From Candidatus Bipolaricaulota bacterium (GTDB taxonomy: Bacteria > Bipolaricaulota > Bipolaricaulia > Bipolaricaulales > Bipolaricaulaceae): DNA of 34,141 bases. Within the stretch, counting starts at the first letter, position 1. Every line of letters starts with the position of its first letter. Below, one piece after another: positions 19,681 through 28,826 of this stretch. Location of the stretch: contig JANXBC010000002.1 of assembly GCA_025060555.1 (NCBI GenBank), positions 1 through 34,141 on the forward strand. Direction: 5' to 3'. Below the pieces are notes generated by a model, which was given only the letters and a program-made list of their open reading frames with translations, did not search any database and was not told where the DNA came from. The position numbers were made by a program, and so were the translations under genes.

Positions 19681-20724
19681 ATGCTGAAGAAGAAAGACTA
19701 TCTGCGTGAGCCAGTGCAGCACATTGATCCAAAGAGTTTCAATGCCGTTCCCATTGTAGAGGCGATGGCCTTAATGTCTTATCAGGCGCGAAACCTCGCG
19801 CAAGCCGCAAAGATTTATGACCGCATGTTGGCCGACCTAGACTGCACGATCATCTTGTGCCTTGCCGGCTCCCTCGTTAACGCCGGCCTCAAACAATGTC
19901 TCGTGGACCTCCTCCGGCACAACATGGTAGACGTGGTGGTGGCCACCGGCGCGAATATCGTGGATCAAGACTTCTTCGAGGCTTTGGGCTTCAAACACTA
20001 TATTGGCAGCCCCGACGTGGATGACAACGAGCTCCGCGAGCTTCACATCGACAGAATCTATGACACATTCATCGATGAGGATGAACTGCGGGTTTGCGAC
20101 CATACGGTGGCAAAAATCGCCGAGAGGCTTCCGCCTGGGGTGTACTCCTCCCGGGAGTTCCTGCGGGAGATGGGCCGGTACCTTGTGGAGCAGGGGCTGG
20201 GAAGGGATTCGATCGTACGGGTTGCCTACGAAAAGGCCATTCCCATTTTCGTGCCCGCTTTTTCCGATTGCAGCGCGGGCTTTGGCCTGGTCTTACACCA
20301 GTGGCAGCATCCTGAACGGCATGTTTCCATCGATTCCGTGAAAGATTTTCTGGAACTCACGCGGATCAAGATCGCGGCGAAAGAGACCGGGCTAGTGATG
20401 CTCGGGGGTGGCGTGCCCAAGAACTTCGCCCAGGATGTGACGGTGGCCGCTGACGTTTTGGGGTTCCCTGTGCCCATGCATAAGTACGCCATTCAGATCA
20501 CCACTGCAGACGTGCGCGACGGTGGCCTTTCCGGATCTACCCTCAAAGAAGCAAGCTCATGGGGCAAGGTAGCACAGGGCTTTTCCGAAATGGTCTGGGC
20601 TGAGGCCACTTTGGTCCTTCCAATCCTCGTGAGTTATGTGTATCACAGAAATACCTGGCGAGCGCGTGCGGAAAGGCGCCTTTCCGACTGGCTAGATCAA
20701 CCGGCCTCCCTGCCCGCTTCGTAG
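19681..20724 (+). CDS. Deoxyhypusine synthase-like protein
   Basis: MALMSYQARNLAQAAKIYDRML, LAGSLVNAGLKQCLVDLL, ATGANIVDQDFFEALG, MLGGGVPKNFAQD (lysine matching the catalytic Lys region), SGSTLKEASSWGKV; SD GAGGAGGG. Confidence 0.9.
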   Translation: MLKKKDYLREPVQHIDPKSFNAVPIVEAMALMSYQARNLAQAAKIYDRMLADLDCTIILCLAGSLVNAGLKQCLVDLLRHNMVDVVVATGANIVDQDFFEALGFKHYIGSPDVDDNELRELHIDRIYDTFIDEDELRVCDHTVAKIAERLPPGVYSSREFLREMGRYLVEQGLGRDSIVRVAYEKAIPIFVPAFSDCSAGFGLVLHQWQHPERHVSIDSVKDFLELTRIKIAAKETGLVMLGGGVPKNFAQDVTVAADVLGFPVPMHKYAIQITTADVRDGGLSGSTLKEASSWGKVAQGFSEMVWAEATLVLPILVSYVYHRNTWRARAERRLSDWLDQPASLPAS

Positions 20725-20754
20725 CGAACTCTGGCCTCTCCCCCCTCTTGTTCG

Positions 20755-20860
20755 TAAAATTCGGCCGTGACCCGACTGCGTTCGGGTGGTCAGACCCGTT
20801 TGGGCCCAAACCCAAATGGGTTGTTTTTTGGCCAACACTTGCCCGGGGAGGAGGTGAAAG
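20755..20860 (+). promoter_or_regulatory. Putative speD leader with overlapping hairpins and U-tract
   Basis: TAAAAT 20755-20760; hairpin ACCCGA-CTGCGT-TCGGGT 20770-20787; 14-nt palindrome GTTTGGGCCCAAAC 20798-20811; AACCCA-AA-TGGGTT 20809-20822 followed by GTTTTTT; SD GGGGAGGAGGTG before ATG 20861. Confidence 0.5.
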
Positions 20861-21208
20861 ATGCGGGAGCTCGGGAGGCACCTTGTGGTGGAGCTGTGGG
20901 GATGTCAACAAAACTTGAACAATCCGGAGGAGATCCGGAAGGCCTTGGTGGAGGCCGTCCGGCGGGCCGGTGCCACCCTCATCGACGTCCAAGTACATAC
21001 GTTCAACCCGCACGGAATATCCGGCGTTGCCGTCATCGCCGAATCCCATATTTCGCTGCACACCTGGCCTGAGCACGGGTATGTGGCCCTCGACGTGTTC
21101 ACCTGCGGGGAGAAAGTGGTGCCGGAGGCGGCTTTCCAGGTGTTCCGGGAGCTCTTCCGCCCCCAGCGCACCCACCTCATCGAGATCAAGCGCGGGATCC
21201 AACTATGA
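20861..21208 (+). CDS. speD: S-adenosylmethionine decarboxylase proenzyme (prokaryotic class)
   Basis: VVELWGCQQNLNN, AVIAESHISLHTWPEHGYVALDVFTCG including the pyruvoyl-forming Ser. Confidence 0.96.
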   Translation: MRELGRHLVVELWGCQQNLNNPEEIRKALVEAVRRAGATLIDVQVHTFNPHGISGVAVIAESHISLHTWPEHGYVALDVFTCGEKVVPEAAFQVFRELFRPQRTHLIEIKRGIQL

Positions 21209-22077
21209 CCGGCGGAAGACAACCAGGAGAGGACTGGTTATGTGAAGAACAAGCGCCGGGCCTTTGGCTTTGCCTTGGGGTTCGCAGGTGGCTCGTCCGC
21301 CGGAGAACAGCGTACCAGGCATTGGACCTGGTAGAAACTGAGGGTCACGGCCGGGTCCTTGCCCTGGACGGGAAATTTATGCTTTCTGAGCGCGACGAGT
21401 TCTTTTACCATGAGATGTTGGTGCACCCCGCGCTCCTTGCTCACCCCTCCCCGGAGCAAATATTGATCGTGGGTGGGGGAGACGGAGGGGCCTTGCGCGA
21501 AGCCCTCCGTCACCCGCTCAGACGGGCGGTCCTCGTGGAAATCGACGCCGGGGTCCTCGAAGCAGCACAGGAATGGCTCCCCTCCGTGCACCAGGGAGCG
21601 TTCAGCGACCCCCGTGTGGAGGTGGTGATCGCCCCAGGCGAGGATTTCCTGCCCAAACACGCTGAGGAGTTCGACGTGATCATCGTGGATTCCACTGATC
21701 CCATTGGTCCGGGGGCTGCTTTGTTCAACGTCTCCTTCTTTGAGGCTTGCCGTGCAGCTTTACGCGAGCCGGGCTTCCTTGCGCTGCAAACGGGAAGCCC
21801 CTTCCTCCAGCCAAGCGAGCTTAAGGCCGTGATCCATGGTCTTGCCGCGCTCTTCCCCGTGGTCGTTCCGTATCTGGGCTTCATGCCCCTCTATCCCTCA
21901 GGGATGTGGAGCTATGTGTTAGCGAGCACCAAGCCTCTTCCCACCGCGGAGGAATTTACACAGCGTTTTTTACAAAGGGATCTGCGTACTCGCTATTTCA
22001 CCCCGGCCATGTTCCAGGCGGCCACGGTCATCCCCCCTTTCTTAAAGGAGGCCCTCCACTCATGCCCCAACGCCTGA
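21205..22077 (+). CDS. speE: Spermidine synthase family aminopropyltransferase
   Basis: LALDGKFMLSERDEFFYHEMLVHPALLAHPSPEQILIVGGGDGGALREALRH, VIIVDSTDPIGPGAALFNVSFFEAC; ATGA overlap with speD. Confidence 0.95.
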   Translation: MTGGRQPGEDWLCEEQAPGLWLCLGVRRWLVRRRTAYQALDLVETEGHGRVLALDGKFMLSERDEFFYHEMLVHPALLAHPSPEQILIVGGGDGGALREALRHPLRRAVLVEIDAGVLEAAQEWLPSVHQGAFSDPRVEVVIAPGEDFLPKHAEEFDVIIVDSTDPIGPGAALFNVSFFEACRAALREPGFLALQTGSPFLQPSELKAVIHGLAALFPVVVPYLGFMPLYPSGMWSYVLASTKPLPTAEEFTQRFLQRDLRTRYFTPAMFQAATVIPPFLKEALHSCPNA

Positions 22078-22871
22078 GTTTCCTTGGGACAAGCCTGGAC
22101 TATGCTGAGGCGAAGGTGGTTGTGCTTGGGGTTCCGCTTGAGCGCACCAGCAGTTGGCGCACCGGCCAAGCCCAAGGACCAAACGCCATCCGCGCCGCTT
22201 CTGATTCCGTGGAATTTTTTTCCGCGCATTTCAGGAAAGATGTCCGGAACGCAAAAATTGGCGATCTTGGGGACCTCGACCCCTATCGATCAATTGAGGA
22301 GATACTCGCTGAGGAGGAAGCGGAAGTCACAAAGATCCTGAGTGATGGAAAGGTCCCGATAGTGTTGGGCGGCGAGCACACCATCGTTGTTCCCGCAGTG
22401 CGTGCGGCTGCGAAATTCGGCCCCCTTCAACTCCTGGCCCTGGATGCCCACTCCGATCTGCGAGAAGAATATTTGGGGCTGAGGTTTTGCCACGCTACCG
22501 CTTTACGTCGGGCGAAAGAAAGGGTGGAGAACATGGTGATCGTTGGTGCACGCTCATTTTTTGGGCCGGATCTGAGCGAGCCCATCTTCGCCACCCCTGA
22601 GGAATTCGCTACCAGATTGCGCCCGGAACTTCCGGTTTGGCTGAGCATTGATCTCGATGCCCTCGATCCCAGCCTCTGTCCGGGGGTGACCAACCCCGAG
22701 CCAGGCGGGCTCTCCTGGGCGGAGGTCCTCGCGATATTCCGCACGCTTCAGGGATTCAAGGTGATTGGGATGGATCTCGTGGAGTTAGCCCCACCTTGGG
22801 ATCCTTCCGGTGTCTCTGCGGTCTGTGCGGCTAAGCTCATCATTGAGGCCATCGCCGCCCTCTGGGCATAA
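22062..22871 (+). CDS. speB: Agmatinase / N1-aminopropylagmatine ureohydrolase
   Basis: GGEHTIVVPAV, LALDAHSDLREEYLG, SIDLDALDPSLCPGVTNPEPGGLSWAEV. ATG 22062 inside the longer listed ORF; overlaps speE. Confidence 0.92.
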   Translation: MPQRLSFLGTSLDYAEAKVVVLGVPLERTSSWRTGQAQGPNAIRAASDSVEFFSAHFRKDVRNAKIGDLGDLDPYRSIEEILAEEEAEVTKILSDGKVPIVLGGEHTIVVPAVRAAAKFGPLQLLALDAHSDLREEYLGLRFCHATALRRAKERVENMVIVGARSFFGPDLSEPIFATPEEFATRLRPELPVWLSIDLDALDPSLCPGVTNPEPGGLSWAEVLAIFRTLQGFKVIGMDLVELAPPWDPSGVSAVCAAKLIIEAIAALWA

Positions 22872-22924: not shown

Positions 22925-25288
22925 ATGAGGTGCGGTGAGGAGAGGGAGCTTGCCGTAGTGGCAGCGGTGGCCAAGGCCTCTCTTTCTGGCCAAGACCCGA
23001 AGGAGTTCTGCCAGCAGGTCCTGGCTGGGATCCTTCCTGTCCTGGGATTGGACGCCGGCGCAGTCTACCTCCTTCACCGTTCACAATTCGTCTTGCTTGC
23101 TCACTACGGCCTGTCTTCGGAGTTCGTGGCCCAGGCCAGTGTGACCCCCCGTGATCACCCATGGCTCGGCCGGGCTGTGCGGGAACGTCGCACCCTCTGG
23201 GTGCAAGAATTCTCCTCGCCGGTAACTAGGGCCGAGGGGATGAAGGCGGCGGTGTTGCTCCCCTTGGTCATGGGGGAGAAGGAGCTTGGGGTGCTCGCGG
23301 TGGGCACGCGCTGCGCTTGGGAACCAACCCCCTCGGACCAACGGGCTCTCGAGCTTGCCGCCCATATCTTCGCACTAAGCCTGACCCAAAAGCTGGAAAC
23401 CTCGGAGAAGGCCGAGTTACTTGCCCGCTACCAAAACTTCGTGGAGAACGAGATCTTTGGGGTCTACATCGTTCAAGATGGCCGGTTTGCGTTTGTGAAT
23501 GAAGGGCTTGCGAAAATACTCGGCTACCGTAGGGAAGAACTCCTCAACCGCCCATGCCTGGAGGTGATACACCCTGACGACCGCGCGCGGATAACTCAGG
23601 GCTTGGAAGCGCAGCTCAAGGAGGGGTCAGGCACGCGACGCCGCCAAGTCCGAGTTTTAGCGCAAGATGGAAGCGTCAAAGTCGTGGAAATCCAAACTTG
23701 GCCAATCCAGCTTTCTGGCCAGCCGGCGGTCCAGGGGGTTGCCCGCGATGTGACGTGGGAGGCACAGGTTGAGAAGCTTCGGCAGGACTTGCTTTCTGTA
23801 GCCACGGAAATTTTGGCGGGAACCGATGTCTCAGCAATCCTTCGGCGCGTGGCTCAAGCGGTGGTGGAGCATTCACCCTTTCGGCGGGCGGTGGTGACCT
23901 TATATGACCTGCGGCATGAACCCCCGTTCTTAGGTCCCACTGTGGCCATTGCCACCGCCGGTCTCACCGCAGAGGAAGAGGAACAGCTGCGTAGCCAAGG
24001 CGGTCTCCCTCCCCACCACCGTGCCATGGCGTTTCAAGAGGAGTTCCGGATCGGTCAGTCGTACTACATCTCTCATGACCGGGTCCCCTGGGAACCTACA
24101 TATGGTCTTCCTGGAAGGAATGCCTCCGATGGTTGGCATCCCGACGATTTTCTGTTCATCCCATTGCGAGGAAGGTTAGGAATCATCGGCCACATCTCTG
24201 TGGACGAACCTGTGACACCGAAGGCGCCGACGCTGGAGATGTTGGAGCCGATCGAATTATTCGCGGGTCTGGCTGCCTTGGCAGTGGAACGGGCGTTCCA
24301 GTTGGAAGAGCTGCGGCGGCATAAGGAGTGGCTGCGCGGAGCCTTCCGCTTGGCCCACGAGCTTGGGCGCTGTAATTCCCTAGAAGAGCTTTTATCCGAA
24401 GCATTAGGAACTCTCGCAAGAGAAGTGCGGTATGAGTTTGGCGCGATCCTCCTCCGGAAGGGTGGGGAGCTGGAAGTGGCGGCCACGCACTCTTCCCTCC
24501 CCGGTTTCCAATACACCTTGGGGCAGCGCATACCCCTCACCCTGGGCGTGGTGGGCTGGGTTGCGACCCACCGTCAACCCCTGCGGTTGAACGATGTGCT
24601 AGGGGATCCACGCTATGTGCCCGTCCACCCGGAAATTCGTGCGGAGTTAGCTGTACCCATCCTCTTTGGCGAGGAAGTTCTGGGCGTGGTGGATGTGGAA
24701 AGTGTAACGCCTGGTCGTTTTAGGCCTGAAGACGAGGAGTTCCTCGCCGCCGTGTCGGACCTTTTGGGCACTGCCATCGAAAGCCTCAGGGCCCGCGAGA
24801 CCCTCCGCGAGCTCAGCCTCCGGGACCCCCTCACTAACCTCTACAACCGCCGATATTTGTTGGAGGTCCTCGCGCGGGAGATCGGCCGAGCTCACCGCTA
24901 TGGCCACCCCTTCAGCCTTGCCATCCTAGACCTCGATGAATTTCGCAAGGTAAACAATCGTTTTGGCCACGCCACAGGTGACGCTGTTCTCCAGGGTGTA
25001 GCCGAAATATTGTTGCGCAACTTGCGGGCCTGCGACTATGTGTTCCGCTACGGGGGCGACGAGTTCCTCCTTGTCTTGCCGGAGACCACGCGGGCCGGCG
25101 CAGAAGAAGCCGTGGCGCGCTTACGTGGCCGGCTGCGCACATGGAGCCGGGGACTTAATCTTGGCTTTCCCTTGGATTTCTCCGTAGGTATTGCCTGTTT
25201 CGATCCCGCTGATCCCCGCCCCCTCGAGGACCTCCTGCGAGAAGCTGACGGAAGCTTATACGCAGAAAAGCGCGCTCGTCTAGGCTAA
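22925..25288 (+). CDS. GAF/PAS sensor diguanylate cyclase
   Basis: GAF-like N-terminus, PAS (NEIFGVYIVQDGRFAFVNEGLAKILGY), two further GAF-like segments, C-terminal GGDEF domain (FRYGGDEFLLVLPET) with RACD I-site five residues upstream. Confidence 0.93.
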   Translation: MRCGEERELAVVAAVAKASLSGQDPKEFCQQVLAGILPVLGLDAGAVYLLHRSQFVLLAHYGLSSEFVAQASVTPRDHPWLGRAVRERRTLWVQEFSSPVTRAEGMKAAVLLPLVMGEKELGVLAVGTRCAWEPTPSDQRALELAAHIFALSLTQKLETSEKAELLARYQNFVENEIFGVYIVQDGRFAFVNEGLAKILGYRREELLNRPCLEVIHPDDRARITQGLEAQLKEGSGTRRRQVRVLAQDGSVKVVEIQTWPIQLSGQPAVQGVARDVTWEAQVEKLRQDLLSVATEILAGTDVSAILRRVAQAVVEHSPFRRAVVTLYDLRHEPPFLGPTVAIATAGLTAEEEEQLRSQGGLPPHHRAMAFQEEFRIGQSYYISHDRVPWEPTYGLPGRNASDGWHPDDFLFIPLRGRLGIIGHISVDEPVTPKAPTLEMLEPIELFAGLAALAVERAFQLEELRRHKEWLRGAFRLAHELGRCNSLEELLSEALGTLAREVRYEFGAILLRKGGELEVAATHSSLPGFQYTLGQRIPLTLGVVGWVATHRQPLRLNDVLGDPRYVPVHPEIRAELAVPILFGEEVLGVVDVESVTPGRFRPEDEEFLAAVSDLLGTAIESLRARETLRELSLRDPLTNLYNRRYLLEVLAREIGRAHRYGHPFSLAILDLDEFRKVNNRFGHATGDAVLQGVAEILLRNLRACDYVFRYGGDEFLLVLPETTRAGAEEAVARLRGRLRTWSRGLNLGFPLDFSVGIACFDPADPRPLEDLLREADGSLYAEKRARLG

Positions 25289-26172
25289 AGGGCCGCAGCC
25301 ACTCCCGGGACCCGCGGGAAAAGCCGCGTCTCACGCACATCCTGTAGTCCAAGGAGAAAGCGCACCAGGCGTTCAATGCCGATTCCAAAGCCGGCGGAAG
25401 GAGGCAGTCCCTCCTCCGCAAGCTTGAGAAGCGAGGTGTAAGCCACAGGGTCCAGACCTTGGCGGATGATCCGCGTCCTTATGCGTTCAGGAAGATGTTC
25501 ACGCTCACCACCGGAGAGGGCTTCCCCATAGCCCTCAGGATAAAGGAGGTCCATGTCCACCAGGATTCCCGGCCGATGGAGATCCTCGCGGTCGTAAAAC
25601 TCCCGCTGATCGATAGGAAAGTCTATGACCCACACAGGAGTGGAGTGGCGATGGGAGAGGGCAAGCTCGAAGTCCTCACCAAACTCGTGGTACGCCTCCT
25701 GCCAGGTGACGCGGGGAAATGGACGCGGGTATTCAGGCAGTTCTCGACCAAGCTTAGCCAGTTCTTGTCCAAACTCGCGCCGTATCTCCTGGACAATGTA
25801 GAGGAAAAGCCTTTCGCCAAGGGCCATGATCTCTTCGCGTTTGGCCTCGCGCACCTCTAGATCGAGTTGGACGAATTCAAATAAGTGTCGCCTCGTGTTC
25901 GCTCGCTCCGGGGGCTCAAGGCGCACGTTTGGGGAAAAGGAGAAGATCTTCGGGCATACCCGCACCGCGGCCTGTTTATGGAAGATCATGCTGCGGGTGA
26001 GGTACCAATCCTGTCCGTAGGCGGAAACGATGGCACGATCTGGGGTAGTGCGCAGAGGATCAGTTACGGGGGCAAGGATCACCGGAAGGAGCTCCACAAA
26101 ACCTTGCGCAACCAAGAACTCTCGCGCCGCGCCAAGCACAGCACTCGTGACCTCTAAAATCAACGCCTTCAT
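25285..26172 (-). CDS. Archaeal-type asparagine synthetase / AsnRS paralog (class II synthetase core without anticodon-binding domain)
   Basis: FHKQAAVRVCPKIFSFSPNVRLEPPERANTRRHLFEFVQLDLEV (motif 2-like) and GFGIGIERLVRFLLGLQDVRETRLFPR (motif 3). Only 295 aa and begins at the catalytic core. SD AAGGAGGG. Confidence 0.8.
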   Translation of the reverse strand: MKALILEVTSAVLGAAREFLVAQGFVELLPVILAPVTDPLRTTPDRAIVSAYGQDWYLTRSMIFHKQAAVRVCPKIFSFSPNVRLEPPERANTRRHLFEFVQLDLEVREAKREEIMALGERLFLYIVQEIRREFGQELAKLGRELPEYPRPFPRVTWQEAYHEFGEDFELALSHRHSTPVWVIDFPIDQREFYDREDLHRPGILVDMDLLYPEGYGEALSGGEREHLPERIRTRIIRQGLDPVAYTSLLKLAEEGLPPSAGFGIGIERLVRFLLGLQDVRETRLFPRVPGVAAAL

Positions 26173-26236
26173 TTATCCCTCCTTGGATTTAAAAAAGAAG
26201 ACCAAAAACGAGGGCACTTAATGCACTGGGACTCTT

Positions 26237-26268
26237 AAAGAAAGGAAATTACGCCCCAGCCGGGGCGT
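26237..26268 (-). terminator. Putative intrinsic terminator
   Basis: Minus strand ACGCCCC-GGCT-GGGGCGT followed by AATTTCCTTTCTTT. Confidence 0.45.
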
Positions 26269-26530
26269 TAGCCGGACCAAGCGGGAAGAGGAACTTCTGT
26301 CCGCGTGGCACAAAGGAGAAATACAACGAATGCCCGCCTTCGTCAAGGGGCACATTGCCTTGTGCAACCGTTATCGAAGGGGCCAGTGCTCTAGCCTTGG
26401 GCTATCAGGGGAGGTCGTTTCCCAAGGGCCGGCGCAGAGCCAAGAAAATGAAGAAGCCAAGGGGACCGAGGGGAAAAACAACCATTCTGGGACAACTTTT
26501 TTGCGCTAGCCCCTAGACATCCCGTAGGGG
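26237..26530 (-). ncRNA. Candidate structured RNA or leader in the asnA-like/dinB intergenic gap (family unknown, strand tentative)
   Basis: Stem pairs: 26510-26515/26525-26530; 26388-26392/26436-26440 enclosing 26395-26401/26421-26427; 26337-26342/26375-26380 enclosing 26350-26354/26361-26365; 26251-26257/26262-26268, followed on the minus strand by AATTTCCTTTCTTT. Confidence 0.4.
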
Positions 26531-26565
26531 TTGAGAGAGGGAAAAAGAGGTTTACGATTTTGTTG

Positions 26566-27740: not shown

Positions 27741-28826
27741 ATGTTTCGCAAGCTCTTGAGCGTGGTCATCTGGGTGGTACCGGCGTTTGCGGTGAGTATT
27801 TGTCAATATCAAGCTCCAACAACAAACTTCTTGCGCGGAGACGCAAGTTTAAATTATCAATATTTTGAAGATCCCGCTACCCTTGGGCCGGACATAAGCA
27901 CGGGAAAATTCACGCTCGCGGGGGAGTGGTTAGTGGACTCCCCGGCGCGTGGTATTGGCCTTGTTTTTCAGGGGGATTTCACGTTTTACGGGCTTGCCTT
28001 GACCTCCGCGTTCACCCAACTTTCCGGTACCTTCCGGGAGTATCCCATTCCCGCTCTTTCTTACTTCGTCTTCGGTGGGGTAGAGGGGAGCGTGGACACC
28101 CGCTACACCCGGCCGCTGGTGGAGGCACGGGCGGGGGTAGGATATGGCCGTTTCACAGATGTGACCCCGCTTGTGCGGGCCCTTCGTATCGAGGAGAAAC
28201 TCCTTCAGCGGGGTACGCTCCTTGCCGCGCTCCGTGAAAGCACCCTCCTTGGGCTGGCTCAGGAAATTGGCCGCCAGCAAATGTATAGTTCCCTTTCCGA
28301 CCTCGCAGCCGCACTGGCCAAAATTCTCTCTGCGGAGATCGGGGTGAACTTGGATCCCCGCAGCATCCTCCTCATTGAAGAAGTTCTGAATGAAAAAGGG
28401 ATAGAGCGATATTGCGGCTGGACGGTGCAGTTCGGCTTGGGCTACGTCCTCAGCCGCCCCCAACCTGGCTCTGTTCTCACCTTTAACCTCTCCCTCCAGG
28501 CGGCGGTGAGCCCAGACCCCCGCGCCCAAATCCTTTTTAAATCAGATCTGTCCGCGCCGTATCAGGTGTTTGAGGAATATACACTAAATTTGAGCGCTTC
28601 CTACACTTATCGCCTAAATGAGGATACGCTTTTTTCCGCTCAGTACGCGCTGCGCCAAATAAAACCGCGTGGACAGGTCCCGGCCGGGACGCAAAGCGCT
28701 ACCTTTCAGCTCACTTTTGAACTGGGTGGCGCCACGGTGAGCCTGCAGGTGGGATTTTCCAAACTGGCTGAAGCCCGGGATTGGACGCAAGATCTGCGTA
28801 TCTCCGCAGGATGGCAACTTTGGTGA
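27741..28826 (+). CDS. Putative outer-membrane beta-barrel protein with signal peptide
   Basis: N-terminal signal-like [20 protein letters not shown]-terminal half of alternating-residue strands ([28 protein letters not shown]...[23 protein letters not shown]) ending in aromatic ISAGWQLW. Confidence 0.6.

Follow-up and report, generated by a model that had tools for sequence, protein, structure and literature searches.

What occupies the long gap between asnA and dinB in this Bipolaricaulota genome, and does it act on asnA? A large gap had been claimed at this place in the window (the whole 34,141-nucleotide stretch of DNA analysed), and the start positions of both genes bear this out, giving 387 bp. 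On the minus strand, asnA begins with an ATG at 26172; the plus-strand start of dinB is 26560 (TTG) or, more likely, 26566 (ATG, MPRWILHVDMDAFY). To judge from sequence comparison, the gap is mostly ordinary spacer, and its asnA-side third is a conserved minus-strand leader of asnA (Table 1). This part is probably a 5′ leader that controls asnA by ribosome-mediated attenuation, sensing charged tRNA-Asn. Elsewhere in the window we noted a run of polyamine genes (19681-22871), comprising a 1,9-bis(guanidino)-5-aza-nonane synthase-like gene (NF002699), spermidine synthase and agmatinase, and, 3′ of dinB, a 361-aa ORF (27741-28826) without a Pfam or NCBIfam match.

Table 1 Features of the asnA-dinB region, in window coordinates
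Feature	Position	Strand	Description
asnA	25285..26172	-	Archaeal-type asparagine synthetase A, 295 aa; NCBIfam NF005054, score 354 bits (cutoff 309)
Gap	26173-26559		387 bp, between asnA (-) and dinB (+)
Shine-Dalgarno (SD) of asnA (AAGGAGGG)	26177..26184	-	Separated by 4 nt from the asnA start codon (ATG, 26172)
Spacer segment CCCTCGTTTTTGG	26202..26214	-	Predicted local pairing with the asnA SD (CCAAGGAGGG)
Leader ORF, (V/M)PRGQKFLFPLGPANAPAGA-stop	26249..26311	-	20 codons, predicted leaderless (translation); tail PLGPANAPAGA conserved in eight genus genomes
Hairpin S3, ACGCCCC-GGCT-GGGGCGT	26251..26268	-	Made up of the final codons of the leader ORF plus the stop codon's first base; identical to inverted repeat I15 (ACGCCCC/GGGGCGT) of the gap
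Conserved Asn codon (AAC)	26267..26269	-	Single, abutting S3; invariant columns A34 A35 C36 in alignment A1
Leader segment CCCGCTTGG	26277..26285	-	Counterpart of the anti-SD CCCCTTGGG of SD-led relatives; best SD duplex -13.1 kcal/mol
Predicted -10 hexamer TATTTC	26318..26323	-	17-nt spacer to the -35 hexamer in the window
Predicted -35 hexamer TTGACG	26341..26346	-	Part of the predicted promoter of the asnA leader
Spacer upstream of dinB	26347..26559	.	Without conservation; contains most repeats listed in the original prediction

The asnA side of the gap

Among 59 relatives, credible matches to the gap were confined to ~26237-26350 and came from ten genomes of the same family, always upstream of asnA and at one place per genome. 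The dinB-side ~210 bp gave no match beyond ~26350 in these 59 relatives. The single weak match from a different family (L011, E 0.009) appears to be fortuitous. When 100 Bipolaricaulota genomes were searched for the end of the leader peptide with a degenerate pattern, 10 had it, each at one site and only upstream of asnA; the reversed control pattern matched none.

The conserved part includes a predicted promoter, which in the window's genus resembles TTGACR-N17-TATTTC. Its -35 hexamer reads TTGACN in all seven readable members of the window's genus and in L035, with a spacer of 16-18 nt across these loci, and a GTG start lies exactly 6 nt 3′ of the -10 hexamer in all eight. This constant distance suggests a leaderless transcript, with the predicted +1 at or next to the G of the GTG. 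Comparison of eight genus genomes demonstrates a leader ORF: over the last 11 sense codons the variable columns are distributed 0/0/5 by codon position, all five variable sites are synonymous, the stop codon alternates between TAA and TGA, and the frame is preserved over variable N-termini. Members of this genus have only the one Asn codon, with no additional in-frame Asn. As a separate observation, the start of the leader ORF has apparently switched between SD-led (GGCGGGGGTGATG) and leaderless within one family (window 26173-26311 compared with L031-L047). The leader's own SD in SD-led members, GGCGGGG, complements CCCCGCC just 5′ of the Asn codons, a stretch that reads CCCGGCC in the leaderless genus.

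The hairpin S3 covaries across phyla. In the alignment 97.8% of its cells are paired, and its covariation score is 0.528 compared with 0.221 when shuffled (0/500) and at most 0.243 in slid versions. Three pairs have changed on both sides in a compensatory manner, and the arm variants include GCC..GGC, GTC..GAC, GCCTC..GAGGC and GCCG..CGGC. These values come from alignment A3, in which arms were trimmed by hand and identical arms merged, a procedure that leans towards a hairpin, yet sliding destroys the signal. Column counts were limited to the S3 arms because the MAFFT alignments A1, A2 and A4 lost the register of the SD or of the 3′ arm. S3 may set the timing of the leader or fix its fold. 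The original prediction had noted it as a 7-bp GC hairpin plus a T-rich tail; the hairpin proved to be this conserved element, but the tail (TAATTTCCTTTCTTT) is not a terminator-like U-run. Held to conservation and covariation, the region therein divides: the hairpin shows both, and the dinB-side two thirds do not.

Asparagine codons upstream of asnA in other genomes

The asnA loci that we located come from 100 genomes of the phylum, named genomes from other groups and further genomes from two other phyla. These loci share an upstream design in which one or more Asn codons stand directly 5′ of the GC hairpin S3, and a stop codon lies inside the hairpin or at its end. All of the window's family has this design before asnA, as do most other Bipolaricaulota and members of other phyla. 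The archaeal asnA loci examined have no such leader upstream, and no clear leader precedes asnA in the Bipolaricaulota loci L100/L142 and L147. Leaders of relatives carry 2-8 Asn codons at or near the position of the Asn codon in the window. Examples are GPANTNAPLGA-stop and GPANNAPYGA-stop within the window's family, NNNHPLTCNNAPCGANN-stop and VNNPFFFVHNPNASF-stop in other Bipolaricaulota, and FNNNNNNNVPLL-stop, NNNNVPF-stop and FFNNNVPR-stop in other phyla.

Since the S3 finder itself requires one Asn codon, the evidence was limited to any further Asn codons. Within 13 codons upstream of the anchor, the counts in frames 0/+1/+2 demonstrate the placement of these codons in the leader frame: 9/0/0 for SD-led family members, 24/3/1 for other Bipolaricaulota and 16/0/2 for other phyla. 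A short ORF that carries, in frame, codons for the amino acid made by the downstream gene is a mark of ribosome-mediated attenuators; by sequence it is present across the family, with one Asn codon in the window. In five loci of other Bipolaricaulota (L082, L085, L087, L089 and L096) we also observed two Asn clusters and, between them, a pyrimidine-rich stretch (NNPFFFVHNPNA) that might itself base-pair with the SD.

Two distant genomes from two other phyla carry an Asn-codon asnA leader followed by an intrinsic terminator with a competing antiterminator pairing (L152, 1252-1360, KVNNNNNIRPP-stop; L155, 1331-1433, MRDNKNKDPGFLL-stop). This is the layout of classical transcription attenuation, and it supports asparagine sensing independently of any translational model. 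On the strength of its family, the window's leader would be expected to sense asparagine as well.

Shine-Dalgarno pairing and the proposed regulatory output

In SD-led genera, the asnA SD (CCCAAGGGGG and variants) is complementary to the bases immediately 5′ of the Asn codons (CTCCCCTTGGG and variants). The segment beside the Asn codons is the best SD partner in 12 of the 14 SD-led family loci, where 3.0 would be expected by length, and changes in the anti-SD and the SD track each other in several genera (CTAG in L032; CTCCCTTGGG/CCCAAGGGAG in L044-L047). Cognate pairing exceeds genus-permuted pairing (p 0.013), and compared with shuffles of the same leader segment the anti-SD has a modest energy advantage (median p 0.098). 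These comparisons demonstrate the anti-SD complementarity of the SD-led leaders. When SD-led RNAs were folded from the anti-SD segment to the asnA start, the mean pairing of the SD with the anti-SD was 0.77 in the free RNA and fell to 0.01 when a ribosome was positioned over the Asn codon. A stall model on longer RNAs, with assumed ribosome footprints, raised SD accessibility only from 0.29 to 0.35. Mutually exclusive structures are supported by folding in the SD-led relatives but unsupported in the window's genus. From the complementarity and folding in SD-led relatives we therefore infer translational attenuation there.

The mechanism that we propose begins with a ribosome translating the short leader ORF, whose Asn codon(s) lie directly 5′ of S3 and whose stop codon lies inside S3 or at its end. 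When Asn-tRNA is ample, the ribosome would complete the ORF and leave, the leader would refold, and the asnA SD would be sequestered. In SD-led relatives its partner would be the segment that immediately precedes the Asn codons; in the window's genus the pyrimidine-rich spacer apparently takes this part. Under a shortage of Asn-tRNA, the ribosome would halt on an Asn codon, covering that upstream segment and the 5′ arm of S3. We infer that this stalling would release the asnA SD, giving more asparagine synthetase when asparagine is short.

Predictions for the leaderless genera centre on the spacer, with which the SD pairs at 0.79. Sequestration by the spacer is significant genus-wide against shuffled spacers (Fisher p 0.008 over 8 loci); for the window alone, 12% of shuffled spacers were as low as the real one. 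The partition function in the window's genus favours this local partner over the counterpart of the anti-SD. Of the 9 leaderless loci, 2 have their best SD partner close to the Asn codon (2.1 expected), and simulated stalling did not free the SD in the window's genus (unpaired 0.21 to 0.22). For the window, then, sequence comparison supports the asnA leader, its ORF and S3 well; the output step, with one Asn codon and weak anti-SD pairing, is a presumed one.

The output might instead be transcriptional: S3 (or Rho) would terminate transcription except when a ribosome, stalled at the Asn codon, keeps the hairpin from forming. L152 and L155, as distant Asn-codon asnA leaders with intrinsic terminators and alternative pairing, fit such a step, and so do the position of S3 directly 3′ of the Asn codons everywhere and the pyrimidine-rich spacer after S3 in the window. 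However, no U-run follows S3 in the window or its family, nor in most relatives, and the SD complementarity of the SD-led relatives points to translation. An intrinsic terminator between the leader ORF and asnA is absent from the window and its family and was seen only in L152 and L155. We consider transcriptional control by S3 unlikely, and the output of attenuation is best explained as translation in SD-led relatives and termination in the two distant genomes. The original prediction of a transcription-attenuating leader for an asparagine-synthetase-like gene is supported for the leader and, by what the family suggests, for attenuation; the sequence here does not show its transcriptional step.

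Less probable still is nascent-peptide arrest, in which PLGPANAPAGA itself, rather than a lack of Asn-tRNA, stalls the ribosome. Such a variant is conceivable in the window because the peptide is invariant in its genus while the codons vary (0/0/5). Moreover, LGPAN is kept between genera despite differing Leu codons (TTG, CTT, CTC, CTA), and the window's genus has just one Asn codon. Against this, S3 and the SD pairing also constrain the same nucleotides, and outside the family the peptide differs and just the Asn codons and S3 persist.

The inverted repeats that first drew attention to the gap do exist, CCTTGGG/CCCAAGG (I13) among them and with I1 and I8 imperfect, but they are not above chance. 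Repeats of at least 7 within 60 nt number 2 in the gap and 1.7 in dinucleotide shuffles, and those of at least 6 number 10 and 7.4. The nested repeats at 26337-26440 lie mainly upstream of the predicted asnA transcript and lack conservation. Folding of the gap is average compared with its shuffles (plus strand z -1.0, minus strand z -0.9), and an Rfam search of it gave no match at the gathering score and chance-level matches only at E up to 10. The idea that a ~290-nt minus-strand non-coding RNA occupies the gap, suggested by its inverted repeats and GC-rich stretches, is very improbable, since Rfam, folding and repeat shuffles all speak against it, the dinB side is not conserved, and what is conserved comprises a 20-codon ORF with its own promoter inside the gap.

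Comparison with known systems

Our literature search, with subscription journals mostly outside its reach, found no published asparagine-codon leader or attenuator of asnA. We lean towards the view that these leaders of archaeal-type asnA form a family, so far undescribed and spread over several phyla, that responds to asparagine. Its Asn codons would abut a conserved hairpin, its ORF would carry an anti-SD, and evolution would have switched between SD-led and leaderless starts and between translational and transcriptional output. If so, asparagine would join the amino acids sensed by leader peptides, and the uncultured Bipolaricaulota would gain a concrete case of ribosome-mediated gene control. 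The family would also provide a natural series for attenuator evolution, from SD-led to leaderless, from many Asn codons to one, and from translation to termination.

In Firmicutes, asparagine genes are regulated by T-boxes, which sense the charging of tRNA-Asn by binding the tRNA directly. The asnA leader would sense the same signal, but it has no Rfam T-box match; no Rfam leader or T-box family reached the gathering score for it. In the trp leader, segments 1:2 place the regulatory codons beside a hairpin that holds the stop codon. The asnA leader resembles this arrangement, with its regulatory codons next to a stop-codon hairpin. Among trp/his-type transcription attenuators, the principle of which is given in PMC1183508, L152 and L155 look like true members, whereas the window's leader has no terminator.

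The polycysteine uORF attenuators of mycobacteria, which are leaderless (Canestrari et al. 2020, from the description in PMC9031893), offer a parallel to the mechanism proposed for the window's leader: the speed at which a short leaderless ORF is translated varies with an amino acid and governs the genes downstream. They contain cysteine runs; the asnA leader has Asn codons, just one of them in the window's genus, and its ORF ends at a conserved hairpin. In actinobacteria, the LEU element that precedes leuA, in which leader codons pair with the leuA SD (Seliverstov et al. 2005, PMC1262725), shares with the asnA leader a leader peptide rich in codons for the pathway's amino acid and a leader codon region that pairs with the SD of the biosynthetic gene. 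The LEU element differs in serving leucine and leuA, in that the codon run itself pairs, and in its proposed pseudoknot; in the asnA leader, the Asn codons have the pairing segment on their 5′ side and a separate hairpin on their 3′ side.
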